A DNA stretch of 64,000 nt from Caenorhabditis elegans (Eukaryota; Nematoda; Chromadorea; Rhabditida; Rhabditidae), in assembly GCF_000002985.6 (NCBI RefSeq), contig NC_003283.11, forward strand, positions 3,906,001 through 3,970,000. The letters run 5' to 3'. Numbering within the stretch: the stretch's first letter is position 1; every line of letters begins with the position of its first letter. The notes beneath the pieces were generated by a model. It worked only from the letters and a program-made list of their open reading frames with translations, did not search any database and was not told the DNA's origin. Made by a program: the position numbers and the translations under genes. Below, one piece after another: positions 2,382 through 62,233 of the stretch.

Positions 2382-3097
2382 ATAATTCAATTGTTAATAT
2401 CTTTTTCAAATATTGATTTTAAATGAAAATTTTGTATTTATTGAAAAAAAAAGAAGTTCTATATTCCAAAAAATTACTATAGCCAACTACTTTGATAATT
2501 TAATAATTACGGTAGGGTGCAAAAAAAGTGTTTTTGACAATTTTGCAACAAAAAAAAATCAAAGAGAGTATTTTTAGATTATTTTTAAATTCCTGCGCAA
2601 GCCAGTTTAGTCTTACATTTAATTTTTTTAAAGCAGTCGAAATCACAAAAAAAGTCGAAACCACAAAAATTTATCGTTAAAAAAATTAAATTTAAGAAGA
2701 ACAAGCCAGTTTTGAAATTTTCCGTTTTCCGGTAAAAATATTCTGAAAAATCCTGGAATAAGCACCGCAGTTCTTGGTTCGATCTGTTTTCTTGTTACTA
2801 GGAAAAATATAAAAAGGAAGATAATACTACGTACAAGCTATTTATCAAGTTTTACTAGAATCTGTGTAATTGTCACTTTGTGAATATTTTGATCTACGCA
2901 AAAAAATATATTTTCAACAATAGCTTTTTATGACGAATCTATAATATTAATTGAGCATGTTTTTTCTTGGGTGTTTTTCTTGTAAGCTAAAGAAAATTAA
3001 GCAGAATTCAAAAAATCTCGTCTAATTTTGTGAACAGCGCCGTTTGGGACTATATAAGTAGAATGAATCTACCATTAGCTCTGGATATCTGCAAAAC
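2382..3097. other. Intergenic, AT-rich; TATA box of the next receptor
   Basis: I see no coding signal or repeat unit here. ACTATATAAG near 3050-3059 is a TATA-like box about 40 bases before the ATG of the SRX pseudogene. Confidence 0.6.
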
Positions 3098-3739
3098 ATG
3101 GAGGCAGCAAATGAAACAACATACGCTTTAATACCTGTGAGTTTTTGAATTAGAAAAAAAAATTAAATTTCCATTTCAGATAACACTTATCGGCGCTACT
3201 TTAAACATTTCAATCGTGTATGCTTTTCGGAAACTTCCATCATTGAATAACTCTTTCGGATACCTTTCCGCAAACCAATCTCTCGTAGATGCTTTTCATT
3301 CCATCATTTTCTTAGTTTACTTCTGTCCAATGGTTCTTTTGTAAGTCGAAATCACAAAAATTTATTGTTAAAAGATTTAAATTTAAGGAATCAACAAATC
3401 ATGAAAGACTATTCATATTTTATGGGCTTCGGTCTTGTTTTCTGCTACGAATTGTCTGTTCTCACTCATTTAGTAATCACCATTAATAGATTTGTGGCGG
3501 TGTGGTTTCCATTGAAGTATAAAATATGGTTTAGTGTGGAAAACACCAAAAAGATGATTGCTCTATTGTGAATTTACGAGAGCATAATGGCAACGGTGTT
3601 TTATCAAGGTACGTGTTTCAGGTTGAGTAACAGAGGTGAAATTGGTTTGGCGGGTTCCATTTTTCGTTTTTTATTGTAGCTCTGGTTTATATGGTTATAG
3701 TCAAGGTGGTATTTATGTCTTTCACAGGTGCGTGACTTG

Positions 3740-3900
3740 TGGCGGCGTGACGGCAATTGTCGCTCGGCAAAATATTTTTTCATCAATATCGGCAAATCGG
3801 CAATTTGCCGGTTTGTCGATTTGCCGGAAATTTTCTTTTTCGGCAAGTTGTCGATTGGTCGTTGGCCGGATATCAATTTGCCGGAAGCCGGAAAAGGGTT
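3740..3900. repeat. CGGCAA/TTGCCG-rich repeat in a pseudogene intron
   Basis: Imperfect alternation of CGGCAAAT, TTGCCGG and TTTGCCGAT units, a dispersed Caenorhabditis repeat. Similar sequence occurs near 26215-26340 and 47598-47680. It creates several overlapping spurious reading frames on both strands. Confidence 0.65.
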
Positions 3901-4033
3901 TTTTTTTCAAAAAAATTTTCCCTTTTCTTTAGACATTTCTACAGAATTTGCTTACTTTTAAAAATACATCTAGGCACATTTATAGGATGCGTACAATTTT
4001 ACAGATTAAAATTGAAATTCTGAAATTTCCAAA

Positions 4034-4077
4034 CTCACACCATCGCCTTTCTCGACTCACACCATCGCCTTTCTCGC
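4034..4077. repeat. Two-copy 22-bp tandem repeat
   Basis: The unit ACTCACACCATCGCCTTTCTCG-like occurs twice head to tail inside intron 3 of the SRX pseudogene. Confidence 0.7.
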
Positions 4078-5162
4078 TTGCACACAAGCTATAGTTCCCG
4101 AGACTCGCGAAACGTCGGCCGCAGTACTCAGAGTGTTACGATTTTTTTGGAAGACGCGCCCGTCCCCAAAAAAACCCTTAAAACTTACAACTTACAGACC
4201 TAAAAAGCGCTAAACAAAGAAACATTTAAAGCATATGTGTCCGCAGAAATACCACTTTACCTGTGCAGTTTTTTTCCAACAACTGTTCTGTTATATTATT
4301 GGAATCAATTTATTTGAATCCAAACTTTATTTCAAATTCAAAAATCTTTTTAGTTCTCTGCCACGTGGCATTCTTGGAAGAAATACATTTTATTCAATTC
4401 ACAAATACCGTGTTCTGTGGATACATTGGATGGTATGAAGACTTTGTGAAAAACGCCGTAATTGTGATTATCATTGTGCTTCTCGATATTTCAACCATTT
4501 TTCGTGTTCACCAAGCATCCAGAAATGTTTGTCAGAACTTACATTGCCCTTTTATAAATACTCATTTTCTTCAGTCGTCTGCGCATCGTGGAGAAGAAGG
4601 GAAAAAGTTATCGGCACGCGATATGCGATTTCTTCAGCAAACTGTTTTTCAAGGAACTATATTTTTGGTGGAACTATTGGCATATTTTTTCTTTTCCAAG
4701 TTTTTTTGAAAACCCATGGATCATCTTTTTCGCGACTTCGTTTGGATGGGTAGCCGTTCATGCGATTGATGGGTAAATTGCAACTGTTTCAAAAGTTAAT
4801 CTGACTTTTCTGATTTAGAATGATAGTGATTGTATGTAATCCGGAAGTCAGAAATTATTTGATTGGAAACAAGAAAGTGGGCAATTCTCAGAGCGTGTCA
4901 AAAGCAACGGATGATGGGAAATCTGAACCAGGGCGTCAAGCATAGCCTGCAAATTATCGAATATTTTCTCAAGAAATTTAAAATTAGATTTTTGTTGCTT
5001 TATTAGAAACTAACCGCGTGGTCATTTGATCAATGTTTTTTGTTTACCAATCGTGTTTTGCAAATAGAAAACTAGTTTTCTTTGTATTTCAACAACCTTC
5101 TGTATTTATACCATAATGTTTTCTCGATAAATTTGTAAATTGGTCAATTTCCAAGTTTCAAC

Positions 5163-10838: not shown

Positions 10839-12446
10839 ATGGAGTCTGGAAATCAAACTGCTATTGCGCTAATACCGGTATGTACCATTTTTAATTTTAT
10901 ACGTCAAACAAAATCAAAATGTCTTTTTTTAGAAACAATTGAAAACAAATTTGAGGCAGGCACGTAGTCTGATAGAGATTAGGTGCACAAGTACATGAAC
11001 ACGCAGGCTTGCGGAGGCACGTGGAAGTAGACACAAGGTGTAAGCATGTAGCGAAGACTTTTGTGCGAAGGCAGAGGTAGGCATGAAGAAGACAGAGAGC
11101 AAATAGGCAAGACACTTGGACGTAGGCAGAAGTAGGCAGGCAAAAGGCAGTAGTCCTGTTGACAAGATATTTAGTAGGCACATATCAAAGAATATTGGAC
11201 GGAGACAGTGGTAGGTAGGCATATGGCAGTAGGCAAATAGGCAAGCTTCTTGGTTTCAAGTAAAGGCTGGAAGGTATAAGGCAGTAAGCATGTAGGAAAT
11301 TCTTTTAAACGTAGGCAGAAGTCGGCAGGTATATGGCTGTAGGCAACTCTCTTGAAATCAGTTTCGTTGAAAAAAACTAATTTCAAACAAAAAATTCCAA
11401 ATAACATTCATTGGTGCAGTTTTGAATTGCTCAATTCTCTACGCAATTCATAAGCTTCCCCCTCTGAAAAACTCATTCGGATGTTTGTCGTTCAATCAAA
11501 CATTTGTTGATGCCCTCCACTCCACCATTTTCCTACTCTACTTTTGCCCAATGGTACTTCTGTAAGTCCCTCTATTATTAAACAACAGCCAAAAACGTTT
11601 ACTTTAGGGACCAACCTTTAATGAAAAAGTACTCATTCATCATGGGATGCGCTCTACTTTTCTGCTACGAGTCATCGGTTCTCACTCATTTCTGCATCTC
11701 CATCAACAGATTCTGTGCCGTCTTGGTGCCACTGAAGTATGACATATGGTTCACCATAAAAAATACGAAAAAGATTATCGCATTGTTGTGGATTGTTGAA
11801 ACAATTATTGCAGCCATTTTCTACCAGTGTAGGGGAACATGTTTTGTTTTATTTAAAATAATTTAAAAATTTTTTGAGATTTGTGCAATGTGTTCTACTT
11901 GGAAGAAATTCATTTCATACAATTCACCAGTACCGAGTTTTGTGGGATGGTTGCGTGGTATGAGGATTTTGTAAAAAATGCTGCAATCATCGCAATTATT
12001 GTGTGTTTGGACATCACAACTATACTTCGAGTTCATCATGTTACCAAAAAGGTTCAAAACTGAATCATACATTCTGAGAAAGTTTCTAAATTTTCAGGCC
12101 CGCGCCAACAGAGGCGAGGACGCTAATAAATTCTCCCCGAGAGACATCCGTTTCCTCCGGCAAACCGTTTTTCAAGGATCGGTGTTTCTTCTCGAGTTGA
12201 TCACATATTTCTTCATTCCACAATATTTCCAAAATCAGTGGATCATATTTCTCGGAACTTCGTTCATCTGGGTTGCAATTCATGCGATTGATGGGTATGG
12301 ATGATTTTTTAAAAATAATGTCATTATTTATTTTTAATTTCAGAATGATTGTAATCGTTTGCAACCCAGAAGTCAGAAACTTTCTCATCGGAGGCCACAA
12401 AGTCACCCAACAGACTGTTACTCAAAGCGATATGACAGCGGCATAA
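10839..12446 (+). pseudogene. SRX chemoreceptor gene with a lost splice acceptor (probable pseudogene)
   Basis: Six-exon SRX layout: 10839-10877 and 11401-11561 (approximate), then exon 3 from 11609, exon 4 from about 11879, exon 5 from 12098, and the last exon ending 12446. All family motifs are present without internal stops: KNSFGCLSFNQTFVDALHST, FCYESSVLTHFCISINRF, FCGMVAWYEDFVKN, FSPRDIRFLRQTVFQ, AIHAIDG, NPEVRNF. The exception is the junction before exon 2. Paralogues have ...TTTCAG before ATAACA, but here the bases are ATTCCAA, so the essential AG is AA at 11399-11400. The nearest AG acceptors give a frame break or a stop. The intron-3 acceptor is also weak (TTTTTTGAG). Either the gene is dead or it uses an unusual first exon. 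Intron 1 holds degenerate GTAGGCA-type repeat. Confidence 0.72.
10950..11350. repeat. Degenerate GTAGGCA-type repeat in SRX intron 1
   Basis: GTAGGCA, GGCAGG, GCAGAAGTAGGCA and CATATGGCAGTAGGC variants recur at irregular spacing through about 400 bp. It looks like an old, decayed tandem array. It generates long spurious minus-strand frames rich in Leu, Cys and Pro. Confidence 0.7.
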
Positions 12447-13588
12447 CCAAGCCCTCAAAATTTACAAAACAAATTATTATATTTTTTGTGTATATTTTTT
12501 GTATAGAAATAATTTATAACCAGATAACCAGAGAAAATAACCAGAGGTTTGGCAAAACTACAAAACAAAAAAAAAGCGTTGCAAAAAAAAATCATCAAGC
12601 TGGATTTTTTAAAAATCATACCAGACAAAGATTGACGTAATACTAAAATTATGATTTCCGGCAATTTTTTTTAGATTCCAAAGCATAAAAACTGTATATG
12701 TAGTTTTAAATAGCTTTATTTAAAATTTCACGAGCTCATAATATCGTGAAGAAATTTAATATTGGTTTTCAATAATTTAGACATAATAGGGACAACATGA
12801 AGTATATACAGATCTTTTTGTTTCTGTTATTGATGTTCTAGAAGACTCAAGATTCCAACTATTTCCGAGAAACGTGAAGGACCGAGACTACAGGTGCGAC
12901 AGTATTTTGGAAGAATATTCAAAAATCGGCGGCGTTCATGCTAAAATAAAGCAAAAAAATTGTAAGGCCTTCACGGGATAGGCGACACAGTTACTTCATT
13001 GGAAGACTTGACGCATTAGCGGAGACTTGTGGAAAGAGTTTTTGATTAATACAAGTTTTTTAACGAAAGGTTTGCTCATGCGAATTTTGAAAAAATCTCA
13101 TCAGAATAGTATGTCAGCTCACATTTAAACTTTCGAATAAAACATAATCATCTCAATTAGAACCTTTAAAATTGGTCTCTACAAAACAATAGCGACAGAA
13201 AAGCACTATGAACAAAAAAAAATCATTGAATAAAACATGAAATAAAATATTTGGGAGTACTGTATCTGTTGTTGATCGTTCACTTTTCCGAATTAAAAAA
13301 CCAGACAGCTACAAATCTTTGAAAAATAACACGTGTTCTGGCCAAATGAATGGTTGACTTTCAAAAAATGTAGTTTGAAATGAATCATCGTACCCACACC
13401 CGTTAAAAATTGAAATACAAAATGTTATAAATCACCAAAAAAATGAATGTACTGACAAATGGTCTCTTTTCAAAAACAAAAACTGCATACAAAAATCAGT
13501 GAAAAAGCATATAAAAAGCCGACAACTATATTTTTTTGTATTTTGTGGAGATTATCGAAAACAGTAACAAAACAAAATCCTTCATCCA
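12447..13588. other. Intergenic, AT-rich
   Basis: No convincing gene. Short ORFs at 12359-12664 overlap the end of the previous gene and simple A/T runs. GCATATAAAAAG near 13507-13518 is a TATA-like box for the next SRX gene, about 75 bases before its ATG. Confidence 0.5.
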
Positions 13589-17374: not shown

Positions 17375-18302
17375 TCAATTAATTGTATGACTTATGGAAG
17401 AGACATGATGTTTCACCTTTTGACACAGTAGGAATCCTCGAATCTCTGGATTGAAAACCACCACCACCATTCTGAAACAATTTCAATTTTCTTAAATTCC
17501 CCTCTGGTTTATGTTACCCGTCGATAGCGTGCACTGCGACCCAGGCAAATGATGTGGCAAAAAAGACAATCCATTTGTTATCAAAGTATTGAGGAACAAA
17601 AAAATATGTCAGAAGCTCTAACATAAAAACAGAGCCTTGCGTAACAGTCTGCTTGAGAAACCTAATTTCCCGTGAAGACATCTTGTGTTGTGCTCTATCG
17701 CTGATTGTCGGGGCAGCCTATGAATTGTTATGAAAAAGACTTGTTAGCTGTACTAATATTTTACTTTTCTGGTCATTTTGCGAACTTTGAGCACAGTTAA
17801 TATGTCGATAGACATTACGATTGCGACAATGGAGGCGTTTTTCAGAAAGTCTCCATACCAACCAATAAATCCACAGAGCTCGGAATTTGTGAAAACTAAG
17901 AAATGAATGCTCTCTTCATAGTAGAAATGACAAGTTTCTAAAAAAAATAAAATAACTTAAAAATATCCTGATAGCCACTTACTCTCATAGAAAAAAATAG
18001 CCATAGAACCAGTGAATAGCCAGATTATTCCAATAAAAATTTTGGTGTTCGTACTACTGAAAATGTTTTGATAATGATAGGGTAACCATACTGCGCAGAA
18101 ACGGTTCAAAGAAATTGCAAAATGAATCATCACTGAAAGTTCGTAACATAGAAGAAGAAGGAATCCGCAATGATGAGACATCGACTTCATTGTTGGCTCA
18201 TCCCTGAAAACTAAGTGCTAAAGTTGTTATCCAAATCTGTGACTTACAGTAAGACCATTGGGCTGAAATATAGTAGAAAAATAGTTGAATGCATGGCATC
18301 TA

Positions 18303-20416
18303 CAGTGCGCCCAACTTCTATAGCGCCCCCCTATTTTTTCTCATTTCACCACCTTCTGACATTTTTTACAAAAAACTGCTAATGCCATTCGATTCCAAAT
18401 GTCGAAAAACCCCCTGTCCAAAATTTTCATCAAAAAATTCAATAGACTGAGGAGACTAGGTCAAAAAGTCTCTAAAACGACCGGCCAACTTCTATAGCGC
18501 CCCCTCGAATTTTTGATTTTTTCTAATAAAATCCCCTTTTTTTGGCTTTTTCTAAGAACAACTTATTCATGACTTAAGTTCAAACTGATCCAGACATCTT
18601 GCAAATCAATTTTCAAAAGAAATTTATCCGTGGAAATTCGTAGGATCTCTAAAATTGTCCTGAAACGCCTAATTTTATGTTAGAGGGCGCTGCGCGGCGC
18701 CCAATACTTGAACCAGCACCAGAATCAACTAAGATGATCTACAACATCTATTTCATCGGTCTGAAATTTTTTTAAAGATTTGCAACTCTTATTTTTATTA
18801 TACTACTAGTACGAGATAGCACTACTGGCCTTCGCGCATTCACCATCCTCTAGAAATCAAAAAACACAACAGATTTTATTAACTTAGATAAAGTTCAATA
18901 TTTCGTAGGACCTCCATTCTTGGCGATGACCTCAAAGATTCGATTAGGCATCGAATTGACCAGATTTTTCATCTCTTCGGATATTGTTTTCCATTAGCGT
19001 ACACGAGTCTCACGAGGGAAGCCCACATATTTTCGATCGGATTGAGGTCCGGTGAACAAGCTGGCCATTTAAGGAGTTTAACTTTCTTGCTGCTGAGAAA
19101 GGCACGAGTTGAATTGGCTGAATGAATACTGGCGTTGTCCTGTTGGAACTGCCAGTTTTTTTTCGACGGGTGTCTCAAAAACTTCACTAAATCCTTGTCC
19201 AAGACTTGCTGATAATCTACAGCAGTCATTTTATGACTTGTAAATTGAATGGGGAGCTTCTTCTTTTCCGAAAAAGCGGCCCAAACCATCACCGATCCAC
19301 CACCGAAATTTCTTTTTGAAAAAACCATTGGATCTTTTCTCAAATCTCTCCAGTAAAATCTGTTTCCGTCCGGCCCATCCAAATTGAATTTCTTCTCATC
19401 GGAAAACACAATCTGCAAAGTAAATATGTTGTTTTTTTTTAATTGGATCCATACCTTTGTCCATGCGGTGCCCATATTTTCCTTTGCAAAATCTAAACGT
19501 TTGAGCATGTGATCGGGCGTCATTGATGGAGCCTTTTTTATTTTCTGTCGCACGATGGAAGGATTTTGACTGAGCATATTCAGGACTGTTTGTTTAGAAA
19601 CATTAAGATTCAATTCCTTGCGAATATCATTGGCAGATTTGAAAGAGTTCGATGCAGCCTTCACAATGTTGCGTTCCTCACGACTCGATAAAACTTTGCA
19701 TCTGGGAGCTCTTTTGGTTTGACCATAAGAAAGTGGACTATTGAGGTAATTGTAGACACATTTACGAGAGCGATTGATTTGGCGAGCCATTTCATTTGTA
19801 GAAATATTAAGATTCGCCATCACATCTAGCTTGGATCGTTCATCTCTTATTAGCTGGGGTCCTCGTGGCATTTCGAACAAAATTGATAATAAACACTACG
19901 TTTTCTTGAGCATTCGTATGCCACAAAATGACACGTAAGACGTGAAAAAAAATTTCAGACTGATGAAATAGATGTTGTAGATCATCTTAGTTGATTCTGG
20001 TGCTGATTCAAGTATTGGGCGCCGCGCAGCGCCCTCTAACATAAAATTAGGCGTTTCAGGACAATTTCAGAGATCCTACGAATTTCCACGGATAAATTTC
20101 TTTTGAAAATTGATTTGCAAGATGTCTGGATCAGTTTGAACTTAAGTCATGAATAAGTTGTTCTTAGAAAAAGCCAAAAAAAGGGGATTTTATTAGAAAA
20201 AATCAAAAATTCGAGGGGGCGCTATTGAAGTTGGACGGTCGTTTTAGAAACTTTTTGACCTAGTCTCCTCAGTCTATTGAATTTTTTGATGAAAATTTTG
20301 GACAGGGGGTTTTTCGACATTTGGAATCGAATGGCATTAGCAGTTTTTTGTAAAAAATGTCAGAAGGTGGTGAAATGAGAAAAAATAGGGGGGCGCTATA
20401 GAAGTTGGGCGCACTG
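18303..20416 (-). mobile_element. Tc3-type transposon, 2114 bp, with about 470-bp terminal inverted repeats
   Basis: The left arm (18303 to about 18773) and right arm (about 19945 to 20416) are near-identical inverted repeats starting CAGTGCGCCCAACTTCTATA. TA is duplicated at 18301-18302 and 20417-20418. Arms of about 460 bp are characteristic of Tc3 itself. The element carries a damaged transposase on the minus strand. The terminal sequence differs from canonical Tc3, so it is a relative, not Tc3 proper. It sits inside an SRX exon. Confidence 0.93.
18895..19880 (-). pseudogene. Tc3-like transposase with a C-terminal lesion
   Basis: Strongly Tc3-like protein. The start [18 protein letters not shown] sits three codons inside the open frame that begins at 19880. 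N-terminal paired-type DNA-binding helices span residues about 1-105, with [15 protein letters not shown]. Catalytic residues are all present: Asp in FSDEKKF, Asp in QQDNASIH, Glu in SPDLNPIEN, with 34 residues between the last two (DD34E). A 42-base intron (19413-19454, GTATGG to TTGCAG) separates TK from IVFSDEKK, as in Tc3. After NGKQYP the frame hits a stop at 18969. The usual last residues, ending in a NLVNSMPNRIFEVI-like stretch, continue in another frame down to 18895. A deletion of some tens of bases with a frameshift is inferred, so the copy is probably non-autonomous. Confidence 0.85.
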
Positions 20417-20642
20417 TACCAAAGCCTGATTGGCAGATAAGTACCCAAATGAATGATTGAATGATTGTAATTTACGAATCGCGTAGAGTATTGTCCAATT
20501 GAGGCAAGAACCAATTAAGGTAATCTTAAAAGAATTTCAATTGTATGATATACTTTCTTTTTTTATGGATAAAAAATACATTTTTGATTGTTACTTTTAG
20601 AAAACTTACTGGGAGCAATGCGTAAATAGTTTGATTGGCCAT

Positions 20643-23398: not shown

Positions 23399-24678
23399 AT
23401 GGATGACATTCATCAGCAAACGCTGTACGCATTACTGCCTGTAAGTAATAAATAAAAATAGTCTACTGAATTGAAAAACTTTTTGGAAATTTATTGCAAT
23501 TTCTCAAAACAGTTTTTTCTGCATGGCAATCTTATTTCAGCAAAGTTTGGCAAGTGCCAATGTGAATGTCACTTAAAGGTAGAGTAGCTTTCGAATAGTT
23601 CTTCATACTTTACAGATTTCATTGATTGGTTCAGTGCTAAACTGGGCAATTTTCTATGCAGTCAACAAGCTGGAATGTTTCAACCATTCTTTTGGATACT
23701 TATCTGCAAGCCAGGCAATAGTAGATGCCATGCACTCAACCACTTTCCTTATCTTTTTTTGTCCAATGGTACTTTTGTAAGTGAATTGGAAATTTTTCAG
23801 TTTCAGGTACTTGTAAGTTCTTGTTTTTAGAGACGAGCCAACATTGAAAGCAATGTCTCACCATTGTGGATTTGTACTTCTGCTCTGCTATGAGCTCTCA
23901 GTGATGATTCATCTCGCCATTTCCCTGAATCGCTTCTGCGCAGTGTGGGCTCCATACAAGTATCAAAATATTTTCAGTGATAGAAACACTAAAATATTGA
24001 TTGGTTTTGTTGGGACGGTAACTGGATCAATTGCTATATACTTCTATGAAGGCAAGTTACATATTGAGTTAATATTTTTCTCATCTTGAACTTTTATAGT
24101 TTCCTGCCATTTTTATTACGATGAGAAAATACATTTCTTAACGTTCACAAATTCCGAATTCTGTGGATACATTGGCTGGTATGGAGATTTCTTGAAAAAC
24201 GCTGTCATCGTGGCAATCGTTGTCTCAATTGATATTCTTACAGTTGTCAAAGTCAAACAAATGTCTAAGAAGGTAAATTTTTTTGGGTAGTATTATATTT
24301 AAACTTTTTAAAATTTTTGCAGATTAGCTCAAGCATTTCTGATCAGGCACACAGTAATCTAACTAGTCGGGAAATCAGATTTCTGAAACAGACTGTTACG
24401 CAAGGCTCTGTTTTCATGTTGGAGCTTCTGACATATTTTTTCGTTCCCCGATATTTTGCAAACAGATGGATTGTATTCTTTGCCACTTCCTTTGCCTGGG
24501 TTGCAGTACACGCCGTTGATGGGTATATTTAACTCTAAATTAGTCATTTAAGTTTTTTATTTCCAGAATGGTAGTGATTCTCTTCAATCCTGAAATTCGG
24601 AAATTCCTTCTTGGCAAAAAAGTCAAAAATGCTATAACTTCGACTAATCAAACGTCAAATAATAAAGCACATGCTTAA
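23399..24678 (+). CDS. SRX-family chemoreceptor, 302 aa, 6 exons, one GC-AG intron
   Basis: Intact SRX receptor. Exons: 23399-23440, 23616-23776, 23831-24051, 24100-24272, 24323-24522, 24567-24678. Exon 3 ends GAAG before GCAAGTTA, so intron 3 (24052-24099) uses a GC donor. This is fixed by the family-wide 221-base exon length and by the next exon continuing VSCHFYYDE. Motifs: FGYLSASQAIVDAMHST, LCYELSVMIHLAISLNRF, FCGYIGWYGDFLKN, LTSREIRFLKQTVTQGS, AWVAVHAVDG, NPEIRKF. Intron 1 contains a fragment of the TTAAAGGTGGAGTAG element. It is the closest relative of the transposon-split gene at 17375-20642 and is divergently oriented from it. Confidence 0.88.
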
Positions 24679-49765: not shown

Positions 49766-51682
49766 TTAATGAGAAACCGGAATCAATCTGATATTATAAT
49801 TAGGAGGCCTTTTCATCAATCCAAACGGCGTAGAAGTCTTGATCTCTGGTTTAACTCCGACTGCTTCCAAGTTGAAGTCCAAAACCAAGTTTCCAATTAT
49901 CTAAAAACAACATAACATTTTTTTGAGCTTTAAATGAGGTTCAATTACCAAATACAGCTCGGCTCTAGCCAACGACTCTCCGGGGCATGATCGTTTCCCA
50001 ATTCCAAATGGTATCAGCTTTTTATCCAAATTATTATTCTCGATGAATCTTTCCGGATCAAATTTAGTATGATCTTTGAACAAATCTTCATCAGTGTGAA
50101 TCATTGCAAGTTGAGTTGTCACGACTGAACCAGACGCGATTGGTTGTCCGTCGATATGAGAGTCTTCTTGGAGTTGACGGAAAATGTTTACATTTAGAAT
50201 TGAAGATATTCTTTGAACCTCCTAAAACGTGATGTGATCTCGAACATCAAACCCCTAAAACTTCAGAGACTCACATTAACAACCGCAGTCAAATAAGGAG
50301 TTTGTGCTCGATCAGTCAACGATACACTACGAGTTCCACCAGTTATTTGAATCAGCTCTTTCCTCAGCTTCTCTACAACTTCTGGATGATTCAGAAGGCA
50401 CGTGCCTGCCCACGTCAAGGTCGTTGAAGTTGTCTCCTGTCCAGCTAGCCACAAGTCGAACAGGTCAATAGCTAAGGTTTCCAGTCTGAATCCTTATAGT
50501 AAGATCAATTAAAATTTACGAAACGTTACGTGAAAGTGGAGTCGATCCCTTCCTTTTTGTCTTTCTCGATTTTAATCAGGAATGCGTCGACGAAATCATC
50601 ACCCTCCTCACTTATGACGTGGCTTCCATTTTTAATTTCGCTTGTTCTGAAATTAGCTGATTTTTGTCGTATAAATTTTTTGATTCAAAATAAAAATAAC
50701 CTTTTCTGAATTCCATTCTTGACAAGTTCATACACAAAATCGAATGGAGCCATCGTAACTTTAGTTCGCCATCTTAGAATTCTTGACTTTAACAGCCACA
50801 AAGGTGTGAACGAATCAAAAATTGAGAGTTCTTCCAGAGCCTTTGTAAGGTACATTTTTAGCTTTTCAAAATCCTGATCTCCCTGCTCAAATCGTTCAGA
50901 AACTAGCATACGGTTAATAATAGAACCGACAAGTAGGTCGAACATTGTTGTAGCATTCACCTCGATAACTCCGTTTTTACCGTGAGTTTTTGAGAAGTCT
51001 TGAATTCTGTAAAAAAAATTTTTTTTTGGGTAACTTTGTTGATGGTTTTTTCCAGGAATTTGGAAGTGTTCCTACATATTATATAATTCCAATTTTTTAA
51101 CCAATAATTGAATTTTTGACATTTGTTAATCTAGTTTTTGTGCTCCTAAATTCCAAAAAAAAAATCGAATCCACAAACCTGTATCTATACTCATCCATTA
51201 TCTTATCCTCCATAATATTTCTCCCCACACCAAAATTCCTCAGTGTAGTCAGTGCAAACCGCCGATGTTCCTGCCAAAAATCTCCGTTTGATCCAACAAT
51301 TCCCCGACCCTCTCTGATATAATCCATTCCTCCAATAGTGAACCTGTGCCCGAAAACGTTGGCTCTTTTCACATGAGTCTCATAGGCAATGTCATAGTCG
51401 GCAATGAAAACTATGGGAATAGGACCAAACCATAGCGTGAAGAATTTTCCGTAATGTTTTTTAAATTCCTGGAAACCAGCTACCATTCCACCAGTTTTCC
51501 ATGAATTATAAATGAGTTGATGTAAGTTTCCAATTAGTGGCAGAGGTAACGGACCTGAAAGTTAAAAAAAAAATTGGTTTCCAAAATTTTCTACACAAAC
51601 CTTTCGGGTTCCTTCGTCTGCCTCTCCAGAGATTAATTGAAAAATACGTCAGAATTGAGGTTAAAATTAAAATTAGAAACAT
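49766..51682 (-). CDS. cyp-33C: Cytochrome P450, CYP33C-type, 499 aa, 7 exons
   Basis: First of five minus-strand P450s. Exons in coding order: 51601-51682, 51179-51554, 50701-51006, 50530-50646, 50275-50485, 49949-50221, 49766-49900. Features: short N-terminal anchor FLILILTSILTYF, hinge NPKGPLPLPLIGN, helix C WQEHRR, helix I LWLAGQETTSTT, EVQR, FDPERF and heme loop FGIGKRSCPG (Cys at about 443). A TATA-like sequence (inverse of CTTATATG, 51723-51730) lies about 45 bases upstream of the ATG. No lesion. It belongs with R08F11/F41B5-type cyp-33C genes by memory; the exact number is not claimed. Confidence 0.87.
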
Positions 51683-52238
51683 TTTGATTTAATTGACTGA
51701 CAAAAATCGTTTTCTATCCACTCTTATATGTTTTTCTTCTAATCACTCTTCATTTTATTTGTTCAAAGTTAAAGTGACACAACAGGGAACAGAAAATGAA
51801 AATTACATTGAAAAAAAGAGAATTAGAGAAAGAAATTTTGTGGTTTGTGTTGACAACGATTTTTGTGAAGTTTATTTTTCGTATTTTCAAAAATAGTTAT
51901 GAAGATTTTAAAATAAATGTTGAAACATTATATCAAAAAAGTGGGCATAACCTGGGTCTGCTAGAATTATGAAAAGAAATATTCATAAATTGGCTCGTGA
52001 GATGTCGAGGTGTTCTTTATGAAATCCACAAATTCAGATACTGGGTTTTCCCAGATTTTTTCATTAGAAAAATGTTTTTCTGGTAAAATTCAGCATGCAA
52101 AGTTACCTTTCGGTTTCGATAGAATGTCTCAGATACTACATGCTTGGAGCACTTACATAGGGCCATTTTTGTCCAAAACTGAACTATTTATTGGTTTTTT
52201 TCTTATCTAAACTACAATTGGAAAACAGTCGAAGACTA
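51683..52238. other. Intergenic between tandem P450 genes
   Basis: AT-rich; the TATA-like box of the upstream gene is at 51723-51730. No other feature seen. Confidence 0.45.
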
Positions 52239-55189
52239 TTAAGAACGTTTTACAAATCGAATTTCATATGATGGTGGTCGTTTCAGTAACGAGAACGGCG
52301 TTGGGGTCTTCATTTTCGGAGTAGCGCCAACTGGTTCTATTTCGTATTCCATGACAATGTTTGCAATGATCTAAAATGTTAAGTTTTGACAGAAAATTTA
52401 AGTTCAAACTAACCAAATATAGCTCGGCTCTTGCCAAAGATTCACCGGGACAGGAACGTTTTCCGATTCCAAATGGAATCAGTTTTTTCTCCAAGTTATT
52501 GTTTTCCATAAATCTTTCGGGATTGAACTCTTTATGGTTTTTGAAAGTCTCATCGTCAGTGTGCATGGCGGAAAGTTGAGTGGCGAATGCTGTGCCCGCT
52601 GGCACAAGTACTCCGTCAATTAGAGCATCTTCTTCAAGAACACGTGGGAGATTGACATTGAGTATGGAAGCGATTCTCTGAATTTCCTAAAAATATTTGA
52701 GTAGTTGTTCACAATAGAAGATACGAGCTCACATTTATAGTAGCATTCAGGTATAATGTACTTGATCTATCGGCTAATGAAACACTACGCATTCCTCCAG
52801 TGACTTCTGTTAGTTCATTTCTAAGCTTCTCGACAACTTCTGGGTAATTCATCAGGCAAACAAATGCCCAACAAAGCGTAGTGGATGTTGTTTCTTGTCC
52901 GGCTACCCAGAGATCAAACAGGTCCACAGCAAGTGTTTCGAGGCTGAAAGACACATTTTTTATTATTTGCGAATTAATTGTTCGTTACCAAGTTACCAAG
53001 TTTTACCCAATGAAAACTAAGTTTTTCAAATTTAAATTCAACAAAGAAAATTGTTAAAATCATTCCTATCATCAAGTACCCTTGTGAAACTTTTCAAAAA
53101 TGTTAATAATTTCTAAAAGTTACTGTCAAAAAGCGGCAATTATTTACTTTAGTTTTAGACTACATTTCTAGTTCTGATTTGAAAAAAATATTTGGATAAT
53201 TTGGAGCTTGAACTTTTTACAATGTTGAGCCTGCAAAAAAGTTTTAAAAAGTCCGAAACTTCAAGTTGTTTTTGGAAATTTCGAAAAATGAAAAACCTAA
53301 AAACTGAAATAATATATTTTTGACACATTGAAAAACCAACAATTTGATAATGAAAATTTTGGACTTTCACTTGTGAATATAAGATGTATTACTAATTACG
53401 GGAAAATACGGTAGATTCATAATTTGAGAACGTACGTGAAAGTTGACTCGACTTCTTCTTTACTATCCTTCTCAATTTTAATTATAAATGCGTCTACAAA
53501 ATCGTCACCTTCTTCACTTAAAACATGTGTTCCATTTTCAATAGCAGCAACTCTGCAAGAAAAAAATAATAGTTGAACGGTATTTTTTTTTCTGTTAAAT
53601 ACCTTCTTTGAATTCCTTTTTGTCCGACCTCATAAATAAAATCGAATGGGGCAAATGTTGTCTTGGTTCTCCATTTCATAAATTTCGACTTTAACAGCCA
53701 TAAAGGCATTACACCTTCAATAATTGAACTGTTTTCCAATGCCATTGTAAGTTTTGTTTTCAGCTCTTCGAACTCTTTATCGTCTTGCTCAAATCTTTCA
53801 GAGACCAACAATTGATTGATAATGGATCCGACAAGTAGATCAAAAAACATAGAGGCGCTGACTTGAATAGCTCCATTTTTGAAATGAGTCTCGTGGAAAT
53901 CCTCAAATCTAAACTCTTACATTTCCAAAAAAAAAAATCATTTGTTACAAAAAAAAACTATTTACTCACCGATAATTATATTCTTCCATAATTTTGCCTT
54001 CTATAATGTTCCTCCCAATTCCAAAATTTCTAAAAGTTGTAAGCGCGAATCTTCTATGTTCCAACCAAAAATCACCATTTGATCCAATAATTCCTCTCCC
54101 TTCTCTGATATACTCTGTGGCTCCATGTATATATCTATTTACAAAAATGTTTGCTCTTTTGACATGTGTTTCGTAGGCAATATCATAATCACATATATTC
54201 ACCATTGGCAGTGGACCCATCCATAACGTGAAAACCTTTCCATATTGCTTCTTCATTTCTTTTATTCCCTCAACAATTCCTCCGAATCTCCAGGCATAGT
54301 AAAATAATTGATGGAAATTTCCAATGAGGGGAATTGGAAGTGGTCCTGAATAAGATACTTTATGTTGGGTCAGTTTGGCCTAGGCCATAAAATAGTAACT
54401 CGTTATGTTGTCAAGTGGTGCCAGGCTGTCCTATTACGGTTTGATCTATAAAAAAATGCGGGAATTTTTTTCCCGAAAAAATATGACGCCAGCACGTTCT
54501 TAACCATGCGAAGTTAGTTGAGAACTCTGCGTCTCTTCTCCCGCATTTTTTGTAGATCTACTTAGATCAATCCAAAATGAGACACTCTGGCACCACAAAA
54601 AAAAAACAATAGGAAAACAACAACAACAATATATCTAGAACTTGTCCAAAAAAAAGCAACACTTTTTTTAAAATATAAATTTATTATCAAAAAATAACAA
54701 TCGCACACGCCACGTGGATTTTGTTTTTTATTTGTTTTTTATTTAGGCTCCTCCCATGTTTGACCTTTAGTTCAATTTTTAAATTCTCTGTTAAAATAAA
54801 GTTGTGGGAGGAGCGTAAATAAAAAATAAATAAAAAACAAAAGCCACGTGGCGTGTGCGATTGTTATTTTTTGATAATAAGTAAAATGAATTTTAGCAAT
54901 CATGCTCCATTGATAAAGACTGCAAAAAATTTTCACGTAAATATATCATATTAGAACACATATTCCACAAACGGCGGGAATAAAATTATCATTATCAAAT
55001 ATTCGTATTTTGAATTTTTTTTTGTTGAGATATTAGTTTTTAGGCTATAATTGTTTGAAAGCTTTGAAAAGTTAAAAAATATCCCAAAAACTTTGAATAA
55101 AACTTACCATTTGGTAGTTTTCGCCATGCCCTCCAAATATTAACAGTTAATATTAATACTGTTGCAGTCAGAATTAGGATGAATAGCAT
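52239..55189 (-). CDS. cyp-33C: Cytochrome P450, CYP33C-type, 498 aa, 7 exons
   Basis: Exons in coding order: 55108-55189, 53970-54345, 53603-53908, 53436-53552, 52733-52943, 52414-52686, 52239-52370. Features: anchor LFILILTATVLILTV, hinge KLPNGPLPIPLIGN, helix C WLEHRR, helix I LWVAGQETTSTT, EIQR, FNPERF and heme loop FGIGKRSCPG. The residue after the last intron is IIANIVMEY where paralogues have II/TGN. Intron 1 (54346-55107) carries two foldback elements and intron 4 (52944-53435) is AT-rich and enlarged. AGATAAGAGG at 55307-55316 upstream is a GATA-type site. No lesion seen. Confidence 0.87.
54415..54596. repeat. Abundant C. elegans-type foldback repeat in P450 intron 1
   Basis: Begins GTGGTGCCAGGCTGTCCTAT and ends with the inverse, ACACTCTGGCACCAC. 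It contains AAAATGCGGGA and CCCGCATTTTT arms with TGACGCCAGCACGTTC between. I recognise this as one of the commonest dispersed repeats of C. elegans, and it is the best single clue to the species. Confidence 0.8.
54682..54879. repeat. 198-bp palindromic element containing CCACGTGG
   Basis: TATTATCAAAAAATAACAAT and its inverse bound arms reading CGCACACGCCACGTGG inward. The loop contains another partial palindrome (GGCTCCTCCCA...TGGGAGGAGC). It lies in P450 intron 1, and its high symmetry suggests a young MITE. Confidence 0.8.
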
Positions 55190-55759
55190 TATTTTAAAAT
55201 ACTGCTAGATTAGAAACTCGAAAATTAGAAACTAATATTTTTTATTAACTTTTCTTATACTAACTCAGCCTACCCCCAAAATTGAAAAGCGCGCGAATGA
55301 GACGATAGATAAGAGGTAGAAAAGAAATAAGACACACAACACAAAATGCGTGTTCTACGCTTTGAAAGTTGTTGACCACACTTTTTGTTTTTATTTTTAA
55401 GTTGTGTAGCATTTGAAGGGGGTTTGATATTAAAAAATTAAAAATATTTCAGATTTTCCAATCTTGTCAACAAATTTTTTTGATGTTTTGGAGAATTCTA
55501 GAGCATTGATGTAGGTTTAATTGGAACATAATTAAAATTTTTAATTCTTAAAAAAACATTTTTTCTGCAAAACCGGCAAGGAATTATAGAATAATTGTTC
55601 CAATTTGAGAAAATTTTCTATTAGAGTCTAATAAGTTTGCAGGCTTGCATTGAATTTGTCCGACCAGTCTCAGCCAAAGAATTATTGTACAAAACAATTT
55701 ATTGATTCAATATGTAGAAATACAATACGGTACATTCAGAAATACAATAATATTAATAA
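55190..55759. promoter_or_regulatory. P450 intergenic region with GATA site
   Basis: GATAGATAAGAGG at 55304-55316 lies about 115 bases upstream of the preceding minus-strand P450 start. The rest is AT-rich without a gene. Confidence 0.45.
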
Positions 55760-57815
55760 TCAATGGGCCCGAGAAATAAATCTGATATCATAAACTGGAG
55801 GTCTTTTCACTGGAGAAAACGGTGTTGGGCTTTCAATTTTTGGAATGGCCCCAACTGGCTTCAAATCGAAATCTATGACGAGATTTCCGATAATCTAAAA
55901 CATATCAATAATTTATTAACTTTTATTCATTCTGACTCACCAAATACAGCTCAGCTTTTGCGAGCGATTCTCCAGGGCAAGATCGTTTTCCAATTCCAAA
56001 TGGAATCAGTCTCTTCTCTAAGTTATTATTTTCAAGGAATCTTTCCGGAATGAATTCTTTGTGATTTTTGAACGTTTCCTCGTCAGTATGTAGCAAGGCA
56101 AGCTGGGTAGTAAAAGCTGTTCCAGCTGGCACAGGGTGTCCATCAATTACTGCATCTTCTTCCAAAATGCGTAGTAAGTTGACGTTGAGAATTGATGAGA
56201 TTCGTTGAACTTCCTGAAAAAAGATGGAAATAAAAGAATTGAAATTCAAGTGGTTTTTCTTAATCCGTAAGATCAGAATTCCAAAAAAATAACAGTTTGG
56301 GATTGTTTATTTTATGCTGCGAAAAAAATAAAAAGGGGAAAAAATCGGTATATAAAACTTACATTAATAGTAGCATTCAAATATGGAGTCTTGGTTCTGT
56401 CCGTAAGGGAGACTCCACGTGCTCCACCGGTAACTTCTGTCAGCTCTTTTCTGAGCTTCTCCACAACTTCTGGGTGATTCAACAGGCACGCACACGCCCA
56501 GGTCAAAGTTGTCGATGTGGTCTCCTGACCAGCCTGCCACAAATCAAACAAGTCGACGGCAAGTGTCTCGAGACTAAAACACACATTACAAATCAGCAAA
56601 AAATATGGTTAACCGAACATACGTAAAACTAGAGTCAATTCCATCTTTCTTATCTTTCTCCATCTTAACAATAAATGCGTCCACAAAATCGTCACCTTCT
56701 TCACTGAGAGTATGAGTTCCATTTTCAATAGCAGCAACTCTGAGATCAAAAAATAAAATTTGAACTGTATTTTTTTGTTGTTGTTAAATACCTTCTTTGA
56801 ATTCCCTTCTTCCCGACTTCAAAAACAAAATCAAATGGAGCAAATGTAGTCTTGGTTCTCCACTTCATGAACCTAGACTTCAACATCCACAGCGGCAATA
56901 CTCCCTCAATAATTGAACCATTCTCCAGTGCCATTGCAAGATTTGTTTTAAGTTCTTCAAATTCCTCATCGTCCTGCTCAAATCTTTCAGATACAAGTAG
57001 TTGATTAATAATGGAACCAACAAGAAGATCGAATAACGATGAAGCATTTACTTGAATTGCTCCGTCTTTGAAATTAGTCTTTTTGAAGTCTTCAAATCTG
57101 GAAATGAACACGAATAATTATGAAAATGAAAGTGTTCCTACGAACAGGTTTAGAAATACTTGGGCGATTTTCATTTAAAACATTGTTGTTCGAAACCGGT
57201 TTTCAGCTGTTTTTCAAGGGTTATACGTTTACGAAACTCATAATACGTTTGCAAAACTTTGAACAGCAAATTTTCAATTTTTTTTTGTTAGTACCTTGTT
57301 AGTAAACTTACCGATATCGATACTCTTCCATAATTTTGTCCTCTATAATATTTCTGCCAAGACCGAAATTTCTCAAAGTCATCAGAGCAAATCTTCTATG
57401 CTCCAGCCAAAAATCGCCATTTGATCCGATAATTCCTTTTCCTTCTCTTATATATTCCATGGCGCCAAAGGTGTACCGGTGCCCAAAAGTGTGGGCTTTC
57501 TTGACATGAGTTTCATGGGCAACGTCAAAATCACAAATCTGTACAGCAGGTATTGGACCCATCCACACTGTGAAAACTTTTCCGTATTGTTTTCTAAACT
57601 GATCGAATCCTGCGACAAGTCCCCCATATTTCCATCCATTATAGAATAGTTGATGGAAGTTTCCAATTATAGGTAAAGGAGTAGGTCCTGAAAAGATTTT
57701 TAATTTAAGTAAAGCTTAAAATCTAAAACCCACCATTCGGAAGTTTTTGTCTAGCCCTCCAAAGATTTACAGTTAATACAGCTGCAATTGCAACTAGAAT
57801 TAGAATTATAAGCAT
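55760..57815 (-). CDS. cyp-33C: Cytochrome P450, CYP33C-type, 499 aa, 7 exons
   Basis: Exons in coding order: 57734-57815, 57312-57687, 56792-57097, 56623-56739, 56363-56573, 55941-56213, 55760-55894. Lengths are 82/376/306/117/211/273/135, identical to the 49766 gene. Features: anchor LIILILVAIAAVLTV, hinge KLPNGPTPLPIIGN, helix C WLEHRR, helix I LWQAGQETTSTT (Gln in place of Leu/Val), EVQR, FIPERF and heme loop FGIGKRSCPG. The first intron starts GTGGGT. A TATA box (inverse of CTTATATAT, 57853-57863) lies about 40 bases before the ATG. It is closest in sequence to the 58867 gene. Confidence 0.88.
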
Positions 57816-58866
57816 TGTTTCTAGATGCAACTAAACTAGAGTTGTTCGCCAACTTATATATCTGAACCATCTCACAGAAACTACATTTTTAACTAATCGG
57901 TAGGAGGAGAATGAGACGCATCATAGAGAAAAAATCAAAAAGACAGCAGCAGCAGAAAAAGTATGCTTTCTCTAAGTTGAGGGTACAGACCACACTTTGG
58001 CTGTGTTGTGTTATTTGGTGTTTTCTTTGAAAGTTTCTGCTTTTGATTGACTGTAATTTTGTAAATTTATAATAAGTATGACTCTCTAAAAACTTTAATT
58101 ATTTGTCCTAAAAGCGCCTAGGCATACCTTCAACAAAAACTGAATTATGTAATAACTCAAATTAATGAGAGAACATGGTAAATTAGATTGGCTTGTATTA
58201 TTTTATAAATTACAGTTACTCCAAAAAAAGCCAACTTCACACTACATTTGAAAACATTTTACGGGCTTTCAAAATTTTGAAAAATGTCAAAATTTAATAT
58301 TTATGTTTTCTATTTTAGCTTAAAAATTATTTGCTTCAACTGCCAAAATTTGCCAAAATTTGCGAGGTTGTCCAAAATTTGTAGCATACTAGCTAATTTT
58401 TTTACACTGTAAAGACTTGTCTTTCGATAAAATAGAAAGTTTTTAAATATGCACTACAATTTTTTAGGAAATTCCCCACATCCAACTACCCTTCTTTAAT
58501 TACTCTTTTAGTTTGCACATTATGTTTTCTAAACACGGTATTTCAAATTTATTTTGAATGTTTTACTAATGCAATTTTGACTATTCTCGGCCGAACATAT
58601 TGACTCCATCTAATCAGATTTTTTCACATTCAATTCTATGTATAATTTCTTCAAAAAATATCTGTTTTATTTTTTAAACTTGATCAGAAATCACATGTGA
58701 TTTGGTTGATGTTGATCGACAAAACCCCAGTTTATTGAATTACGGTTGCCTGATAATTGAAAAAATAAGTATTTTTATTTTTCCTATTTTCAATTTCGAC
58801 CGAAAACCTTCATATATTTTTAACAATATAATTTATCACATGCACAAAATAAAAGATTTATTCAGA
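57816..58866. promoter_or_regulatory. P450 intergenic region; TATA box at 57853-57863
   Basis: On the minus strand AGATATATAAG is a good TATA box. AG/CAGCAG simple sequence lies at 57940-57960. The rest is AT-rich, with no gene seen. Confidence 0.5.
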
Positions 58867-61809
58867 TTATTGAGATCGAGGAACGAAGCGAATATCATAG
58901 ACTGGTGGTCTCTTCATTGGAGCAAATGGAGTAGTTGTCTCAATTTTTGGAAGAGTTCCAACTGGTTCTAGGTCGTAATCTAGGATCATGTTTCCGGTTA
59001 TCTGAAAAACTAACGTTTTTTTGAATTTCATATTGTAAATCGAATTACCAAAAACAGCTCAGCTCTAGCCAACGATTCACCAGGGCATGCTCGTTTACCA
59101 ATTCCAAATGGTATCAATCTCTTCTCCAAGTTATTATTTTCCATAAACCTTTCTGGGCGGAATTCTTGAGGATTTTTGAAAATTTCCTCATCAGTATGAA
59201 GCATAGAAAGATTGGTTGTGACTAGTGCCCCAGCTGGTACGGGCTGACTATCAATCGTTGTGTCCTCTTCGAGAACTCGGAATAGGTTGACGTTGAGAAT
59301 TGAGGCAATGCGTTGGAACTCCTTAAATGAAAAATTGTAATATTTTTTTCTGAATTTGCCTAAATGTGTTATAATTTTTTATTCACAAGGGAAGTATTTC
59401 AACTTAATCCCGGACTTCTGAATGAAACCTATGCCATTTTGAAGAAGATCCTTTAAGTAGGCCCCTACAAAAAATTTAGCGGCAGAGGAGCACTTTGACC
59501 TTGAAAAAAGTCGCTCTGAAAACTTTTCAATACATTTTTTTCACAACTTTCAAGGCCCGTAAAATGGCTCCAAACGTGAATTTTTATAGATTTTAGATGA
59601 TTTCTAGGATGCTCAGGGGCCGGAGAGCACTCGGAATTTTTTTCGGATTTTTTCGGAGTTCGGAATTTCGGATTTTTTTTGGAATTTTTAAAAATTTTCG
59701 AAAAAATCTGAAATTTTTTGAACCGGTCCATGGCAAAATTTTTCAGTGAATATAATTTTAAAAAAAAATTTCAGAAAAGTTGTCAAAGTTATTTAAGATC
59801 AAAACTGGGTGTTTTTACAAAATGAAAAATTTTTTGAGATTTTTCGGAACTGCAAAAACTAATTTTGGAAAAAATCGGCACCCGGAGTCGAACCCCAGAC
59901 TTAAAAAATATTAATCAAACTCGCTAACCACTCGGTGACGACAATTTTTCTTGTAAATGAAATAAATGACAAAATCCAGAAAACGTGACTCTTTGATATC
60001 TACTTAAATATATAGGGACGTGAGAAATAGGAAAATGAGAGAACGCAGAGAAAAATTTTCAGAGCGACTTTTTTCCAGGTCAAAGTGCTCCTCTGCCGCT
60101 AAATTTTTTGTAGGGGCCTACTTAAAGGGTCTTCTTCGAAATGGCATAGGTTCCATTCAGATTAAGTTGAAATACTTCCCTAGTCAGGTATTTTTTTGCT
60201 TTTGATAAATTCAAAAGTGAGAACTTTATGGCTATTCAAAATGTTGAAAAGAAATCCTTATAATAGTGGCAAGCTCAGATTTTGCAAGTTTGTCATTCAA
60301 CTGCAAGACGAAAGTTTACAAAATTTTAGATTGTTTGAAATGGTTGATTTTCTGAATACCAAGCCGCCATAAAAAGCTTTAAAAGAAATACTTGAGATGA
60401 CCCTATTTGCTAATTTGGAGATATTTTGATCTTGTTCGTTATCATCCCTTCAAATTAAAAGAAATGAAATTTAATTAAAAAATGTTTGACTGAAGAAAAA
60501 ATTCGCAACAAAAGAATTGTAGGTAATTGTAGGTATGAATAATTTTTGAAACTGTGAAAAATTGCATTTTATGATACTTACATTTATATTAGCATTCAAG
60601 TATGGTGTCTTGGTTCTGTCAGTAAGGGAGACTCCACGTGTTCCTCCGGTAACTTCTGTCAGCTCTTTTCTGAGCTTTTCCACAACTTCTGGATGGTTCA
60701 GCAAGCACACACACGCCCAGGTCAAAGTAGTAGATGTGGTCTCCTGACCCGCTTGCCAGAGATCAAACAAATCTATAGCCAGTGTCTCGAGACTAAAACA
60801 TGCAATAGAAAATTTTCGAATTATTGAGAGAACATACGTAAAACTAGAGTCAATGCCTTCTTTCTTGTCCTTCTCCATTTTTACAATAAATGCGTCTACA
60901 AAATCGTCGCCTTCTTCACTGAGAGTATGAGTTCCATTTTCGATAGCAGCAACTCTGAAATTTCTTGAAATTCACTTTTTCTGTCAATTGATTAAAAAAG
61001 TACCTTCGCTGTATTCCTCTGTTCCCCAATTCAAAAATAAAGTCAAACGGAGCGAATGTTATTTTTGTCCTCCACTTCATTAACGGAGATTTGAGAACCC
61101 AAAGCGGTAGAAAACCTTCGATTATTGATATATTTTCGAGTGCCTCTGCCAGACTGGTTTTCAGCTTTTCAAATTCCTGATCGTCCTGCTCAAATCTCTC
61201 AGAAACTAGCAATTGATTGATAATTGAGCCAACGAGTAGATCAAAAATTGATGAAGCATTTACCTGGATTGCTCCATTTTTGAAATGTGTTCTTTTAAAG
61301 TCTTTAAATCTATATCTATATTCATCCATTATTTTATCCTCCATAATTGTTCTTCCCACTCCGAAATTTCTCAAAGTCATCAGAGCAAATCTTCTGTGCT
61401 CCAACCAGAAATCTCCATTCGACCCAATGATTCCGCGACCTTCTCTGATATATTCCATACCACCTACTGAATATCGAGTTCCAAAAATATTCGCTCTCTT
61501 GACATGAGTCTCATGAGCAATATCATAGTCACAGATGTATACACTGGGCTTCGGGCCCATCCAGACTGTGAAAACTTTTCCATATTGCTTTTTCAATTCA
61601 TTGAATGCCGCCACCAAACTTCCAGTTTTCCAAGAAAGGTAGAACAATTGATGGAAATTGCCAATGAGCGGGAGAGGAGTTGGTCCTTATAACAATTCAA
61701 ATATTATTATTATTCCTTGAAATTTACCTTTCGGAAGTTTTTGTCTGGCACGCCAAAGATTTGCAGTCAGGACTGCCGCAACAGCCAACAAAATTAGTAT
61801 CAGTAACAT
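58867..61809 (-). CDS. cyp-33C: Cytochrome P450, CYP33C-type, 499 aa, 6 exons (one intron precisely lost)
   Basis: Exons in coding order: 61728-61809, 61004-61685, 60838-60954, 60582-60792, 59049-59321, 58867-59001. The 682-base second exon equals 376+306 of the paralogues, so intron 2 has gone without a base gained or lost (EYRYRFKDFKRTHF reads through). Features: anchor LLILILLAVAAVLTA, hinge KLPKGPTPLPLIGN, helix C WLEHRR, helix I LWQAGQETTSTT, EFQRI (Phe in the helix-K motif), FRPERF and heme loop FGIGKRACPG. Intron 1 and the 59322-60581 intron use AAG acceptors. The latter is 1260 bases long because it contains a palindromic element. A TATA box (61858-61866) and an AGATAA site (61870-61875) lie just upstream. 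Confidence 0.87.
59399..60180. repeat. Palindromic element of about 780 bp inside a P450 intron, with tRNA-like core
   Basis: GGGAAGTATTTCAACTTAAT at the left and its inverse near 60160-60180 bound long arms. For example GGCCCCTACAAAAAATTTAG and its inverse, and AAGTCGCTCTGAAAACTTTT and its inverse. The non-palindromic centre contains a tRNA-like segment at 59876-59942. No transposase. Confidence 0.75.
59876..59942 (-). other. tRNA-like relic (degenerate)
   Basis: On the minus strand there is a D-arm-like ACCGAGTGGTTAGCGAG and, 25 bases on, a T-arm-like GGGGTTCGACTCC. The acceptor stem and T-stem do not pair properly, so it is unlikely to be a working tRNA. It may be a tRNA-derived piece captured by the foldback element. 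Confidence 0.3.
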
Positions 61810-61857
61810 TTTTTCTCTGAAAAAAGAAAAACTTCAACCCATGTTTTTGACAGCCAC

Positions 61858-61877
61858 CTTATATACGGCAGATAATG
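61858..61877 (-). promoter_or_regulatory. TATA box and GATA site of a P450 gene
   Basis: On the minus strand CATTATCTGCCGTATATAAG places a GATA core directly before a TATA box, about 50 bases upstream of the ATG at 61809. Confidence 0.5.
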
Positions 61878-62233
61878 AGGGAGTGTGTGAGGAAAGCCGA
61901 AAATCGACGAAAGAAAAAGAGAAAAACCCAGAGAGTACGAAATCTGAGTAGAGTATAGGAGAAAAGCGTGGTCTCTGATTGAAAGTTAGAAACCACACAC
62001 TGCAAGTGGTTCTATGATTCTATGCGGCGAACGGCGAAAAAAAAAACAATGGTAAACAATGTTGTTACATATATTAAGGATATGAAAATTTGATTTTTTG
62101 ATTTTTTTTTCAAATTCGTGTGGATGTTTGTATATAAATCAAAATGTTTATGTATGACGAGATGGAAAAATATATGTATATATAGGTGTATGTATATTAT
62201 ATGTAGGTTCAAAAAACGAGGTGACAATGAAAT
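61878..62233. other. Intergenic; TATG/TATA-rich simple sequence
   Basis: Short ATGTATAT-type microsatellite-like sequence at 62125-62205. No gene seen. Confidence 0.45.

Follow-up and report, generated by a model that had tools for sequence, protein, structure and literature searches.

An interrupted SRX gene and its neighbours

The window analysed here, a 64-kb stretch of Caenorhabditis elegans DNA (contig 5, 3906001-3970000), contains an SRX-type chemoreceptor gene clustered with eight other SRX places (A to F, H, and I). The gene has six exons and is broken in exon 2 by a Tc3-clade transposon lying between two copies of its TA target. The features of the locus, and of the nearest paralogue F, are as follows.

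17375..20642, minus strand: SRX-type chemoreceptor gene, six exons, broken in exon 2 (from the sequence and PF10328)
20610..20642, minus strand: exon 1 of the SRX gene, 33 nt
20417..20524, minus strand: 5' piece of exon 2, 108 nt, ending in the first TA; acceptor TTTTAAG, with A at -3
18248..18300, minus strand: 3' piece of exon 2, 53 nt
17983..18203, minus strand: exon 3, 221 nt
17765..17937, minus strand: exon 4, 173 nt; weak donor AAA/GTAAAA
17518..17717, minus strand: exon 5, 200 nt; weak acceptor TTCATAG
17375..17471, minus strand: exon 6, 97 nt including the stop codon
18303..20416, minus strand: Tc3-clade transposon, 2114 bp, its transposase oriented as the SRX gene
20417..20418, no strand: TA target duplication, copy 1 (from the sequence)
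18301..18302, no strand: TA target duplication, copy 2 (from the sequence)
18301..18773, no strand: low-side terminal inverted repeat with TA; 23-nt sites at 18308 and 18482
19946..20418, no strand: high-side terminal inverted repeat with TA; 23-nt sites at 20215 and 20389
18969..19871, minus strand: transposase frame; HTH domains and DDE retained, C-terminus lost via a 55-bp deletion
23399..24678, plus strand: nearest paralogue F, an SRX gene with an open frame and no insert (from alignment)

The stretches carrying exons 3, 4, and 5 match the Pfam profile PF10328 (cut-off 23.8 bits) at 72.9, 54.1, and 69.9 bits, with E values of 4e-20, 2e-14, and 3e-19, respectively. The 49-residue piece on the exon 1 side matches no Pfam profile. 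The NR motif in TM3, a mark of SRX chemoreceptors according to PMC2576165, is present in exon 3 as ISLNRF. Rejoined, the two pieces of exon 2 give 108 + 53 = 161 nt, and across the join the flanks read GCT TTG GTA GAT GCC, the form that an empty TA site should have. The first-pass annotation had proposed an SRX gene interrupted in exon 2 by an element inserted at a TA, which the profile matches, the exon translation, and the TA copies bear out.

Paralogue F continues across the insertion site as CAGGCAATAGTAGATGCC, free of any insert, and when the genome (100,286,401 bases in 7 contigs) was searched for the empty site, allowing 3 mismatches at most, a single match was returned, which lies in F. 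The exact empty-site pattern has 0 matches in two collections of bacterial/archaeal and viral contigs, a result with no bearing on whether the insert varies among strains. Exons 2 to 5 have the same lengths in F and the target (161, 221, 173, and 200 nt), and the 755 nt that they comprise align without gaps, with 193 of 251 residues identical. The outer exons differ, exon 1 being 33 nt in the target versus 42 nt in F, and exon 6 being 97 nt versus 112 nt. The proposal that all six exons have family-standard lengths thus holds exactly, relative to F, for exons 2 to 5, but not for exons 1 and 6. Intron 3 of F has an apparent GC donor, AAG/GCAAGT (24051-24053), where the target has GT.

Lesions are also suspected elsewhere in the cluster. 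The SRX relative at 11399-12546 has AA where the AG acceptor of the first intron is expected and, in a mechanical model, a stop near 12061; it may be another SRX gene of the cluster that was broken in a different way. The relative at 3048-4888 shows two apparent frameshifts and one stop, likewise in a mechanical model. As the mechanical aligner gave an artefact frameshift in F, whose frame is open, the lesions that it flags in A and C should be taken as provisional, and its outer-exon models are unreliable. Outside the SRX genes, the C/D snoRNA family sn2524 has five plus-strand matches in the window (50514, 53420, 56604, 60822, and 63326), about 2.5-4.2 kb apart, which span 50514-63428.

The inserted element and its relation to Tc3

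The element occupies 18303-20416, with the ends CAGTGCGCCC...GGGCGCACTG. Its inverted arms are 473 nt long including the TA and 99% complementary, and the first 40 bases are identical on both sides. An element of 2114 bp with repeats of about 470 bp and both TA copies visible, as first described, is therefore confirmed. Each arm contains two 23-nt repeats, 174 apart, which, as in Tc3, are presumably transposase binding sites; the inner site of the high-side arm carries two substitutions private to the window copy. The transposase has the domains PF11427, PF21517, and PF13358 (the Tc3 HTH domains and DDE), a DDE spacing of D-34-E, and a match to the Tc3 DNA-binding structure 1u78 with an E value of 9.7e-45. 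The window copy is not an autonomous transposon, since its transposase is frameshifted by the loss of 55 bp close to the 3' end of the coding sequence; read through an intron-like stretch, the frame reaches its first stop after 300 codons.

The genome holds seven near-full-length copies of the element, the window copy included, and chance is excluded because the other six lie elsewhere in the genome. Nine of 14 sequences were aligned, L027 to L031 being left out as diverged or fragmentary, and TA is found on both sides of the window copy and of all eight other trimmed copies. The transposase frame is open in two of the seven near-full-length copies (L019, 343 codons; L020, 358 codons), and in the four others the transposase stops at 158 to 268 codons. 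L023, L025, and L026 have their own, differing internal deletions (46, 347, and both 379 and 150 alignment columns, respectively), and copies therefore lose autonomy separately. More distantly, the 1.6-kb repeats L035 to L038 have arms that match those of the element at 72-80%.

The element resembles Tc3, a Tc1/mariner transposon of C. elegans, in its TA target, its DDE and Tc3 HTH domains, its long inverted repeats, and its internal layout, and Tc3A shares 203 of 329 residues (62%) with the transposase of the open copy L019. It differs from Tc3 in its ends (CAGTGTGGGA in Tc3, CAGTGCGCCC in the element) and in its length: undeleted members of the element family are mostly 2166 bp long, whereas the span of Tc3 is 2335-2338 bp in 19 of its 22 end pairs, and the one Tc3 copy that was read is 2337 bp. 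The 22-base query behind these pairs, which we take to be the Tc3 terminal sequence, occurs at 45 places in the genome (22 pairs and one lone end) and nowhere in the window element. Canonical Tc3 was ruled out as the identity of the element by these different ends and this different length. Because the canonical ends and end-pair spans differ, the element is, judged by its sequence, a separate family within the Tc3 clade, and its original designation as Tc3-type is upheld for the clade, through the HTH domains and D-34-E, but not for canonical Tc3. A literature search for a named Tc9-type relative returned no papers.

State of the gene and age of the insertion

Translation of the joined exons without the insert gives 294 open codons, free of internal stops and frameshifts, and each of the five introns has GT-AG ends, so that the absence of further stops, frameshifts, or lost splice dinucleotides noted at first pass stood up to checking. 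Splice sites were scored with a profile of 19 introns, placed by coordinates, from seven paralogues (B to F, H, and I), with the target and one GC intron excluded; several of the 19 depend on the mechanical aligner. On this profile the intron 1 acceptor TTTTAAG scores 4.6, the intron 4 donor AAA/GTAAAA and acceptor TTCATAG score 2.1 and 1.1, respectively, and the intron 5 donor CGG/GTAACA scores 1.9, with the remaining sites at 7.5 to 10.7. To call the gene "perfectly intact" is right for the open frame, but somewhat strong given that both intron 4 sites and the intron 1 acceptor are weak.

The target departs from the residues shared by the other window paralogues at 4 of 86 columns; in its own count F differs at 4, and five other paralogues differ at 1 to 17, the paralogue rows having been trimmed by hand (a misplaced start in H, the ends of E and I) and B rejoined at exon 4/5. 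This comparison also revealed a C63S change in TM2 of the target. Apart from the insertion, the sequence of the gene gives no clear sign of decay, with the weak intron 4 as the main caveat; C63S and the weak splice sites could reflect early decay or an earlier loss. Maximum-likelihood comparison of the target with F gives a dN of 0.154 and a dS of 1.90, the latter near saturation, and NG86 gives a dN of 0.160 and no dS value. As dS is saturated, these values do not isolate selection along the target branch.

In comparison with the six other near-full-length copies, 14 substitutions in 2111 sites are private to the window copy (2110-2113 sites when aligned to the five undeleted copies), and it is the second most diverged of the seven copies on which private changes were counted. 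The other six have 1, 1, 3, 4, 10, and 20, the 10 in L021 including a cluster that is perhaps a misalignment. Of the 14, seven lie within the transposase frame, and four of these seven change a residue. The terminal branch of the window copy is 0.0070 long by FastTree (0.66-0.70% overall) and is an upper bound on the age of the insertion, because part of it can predate the insertion. The mutation rate is near 2.7e-9 per site per generation, and with this rate the insertion is at most about 2.5 million generations old.

The first reading had held that the insertion must be recent, on the strength of the otherwise undamaged gene. At the full branch length, with 0.1-0.4 indels per substitution, the SRX gene would be expected to have gathered about 0.9-2.4 more disabling lesions, and the probability of none is 0.41-0.09; at half the branch it is 0.64 to 0.30. 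The wild-type ratio of 0.32 indels per substitution, as given in PMC8727991, is within the range used. Since few further lesions are expected even at that branch, the open frame says little about age: it agrees with a recent insertion and is no proof of one. The lack of further lesions is in keeping with recency, but the 14 private substitutions and the probability of finding no lesion mean that "must be" is weakly supported.

Consequence for the receptor and possible variation among strains

The sequence shows that a Tc3-clade cut-and-paste transposon entered a TA in exon 2 of the SRX gene and duplicated the TA. On translation, the SRX frame continues into the element for six codons and there meets a stop (...NQALVQCAQLL, then stop), and the product in the reference strain would be at most a 53-residue fragment. 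The SRX gene family was under purifying selection before the insertion, and the gene has gathered no other clear lesion; taken together, these make the insertion probably the only inactivating event in the reference strain. Having lost its transposase but kept matching termini, the window copy would be movable only by the transposase of another copy. Overall, it is very likely, from the sequence, that the transposon insertion at the exon 2 TA inactivated an otherwise open SRX gene, as an ordinary transposon knock-out in a large, fast-changing receptor family. The titles and abstract openings returned by a literature search on Tc3 insertions in chemoreceptor or srx genes did not name the locus.

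The gene may instead have been non-functional before the insertion, leaving the insert as a passenger. Such a loss would fit C63S and the weak splice sites of introns 1 and 4, but the open frame, the zero indels relative to F in 755 nt, and the conserved residues, which are as in F, make it improbable. It had also been suggested that the element may be spliced from the pre-mRNA; some receptor would then be produced. Tc1 offers a precedent for removal by splicing, and among 5 donors and 26 acceptors, the latter taken from exon 2b and the final 300 bases of the element, nine pairs are in frame and stop-free. Both of the best pairs rely on ATTTCAG, a strong acceptor within exon 2b, but remove 66 or 36 coding nt (22 or 12 codons) and with them most of TM2. 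Only one pair leaves exon 2 unshortened, and it adds 27 nt; its donor, at 2.7, is better than the two weakest donors of the SRX gene, whereas its acceptor, at -2.6, is below all acceptors of the gene (1.1 to 10.0). Skipping of exon 2 (161 nt) would shift the frame, and no in-frame pair among the 5 donors and 26 acceptors restores exon 2. Clean splicing out was rejected, with the strong options losing most of TM2; a working receptor through splicing is unlikely, and we give removal of the element from the transcript very little credence. A literature search on exon insertions that are spliced out likewise did not find the locus named in titles or abstract openings.

Somatic excision, the other route of escape suggested for the gene, would repair it in some cells, and is likewise very improbable. 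The first 40 bases of the element match at both ends and an open transposase frame is kept in two of the seven near-full-length copies, but the window copy's own transposase is broken and an empty template would be lacking in a strain that is homozygous and self-fertile. Tc3 excision leaves a footprint of four added bases, which would shift the SRX frame, and by this rule frame-restoring excision is unlikely.

Inactivation by the insertion is compatible with, and would be extended by, polymorphism among strains, in which some wild isolates have an empty, functional receptor allele. This is plausible and about evenly balanced on present analysis. The lack of other clear lesions in the SRX gene favours it, as does the base rate: in a survey of 152 isotypes, at least one strain lacks the transposon at 241 of the 625 sites of the reference (241 plus 384 monomorphic), and 209 of these 241 variable sites are DNA transposons (PMC5850821). 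Against it, the branch of the window copy (14 of 2111 sites; 0.0070) is long for a young insert, although it is an upper bound on age. PMC2576165 suggests that some single-defect chemoreceptor genes of the reference strain have functional alleles elsewhere. The present gene is like them in belonging to a large family and in having one apparent lesion with the remainder open; their usual lesion is a stop, frameshift, or small deletion, whereas here it is a transposon.

To transposon biology the element adds a copy, non-autonomous and bounded in age, from a small family related to Tc3. Single-lesion receptor genes in the laboratory reference strain are natural null alleles, and we tentatively suggest that the reference null may be a strain-level polymorphism, with a working allele in other isolates and the insert separating strains by one receptor. 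If so, the insert would be a ready natural knockout of one specific chemosensory receptor, and if wild strains retain the empty site, differences in smell or taste may be traceable to that one receptor.
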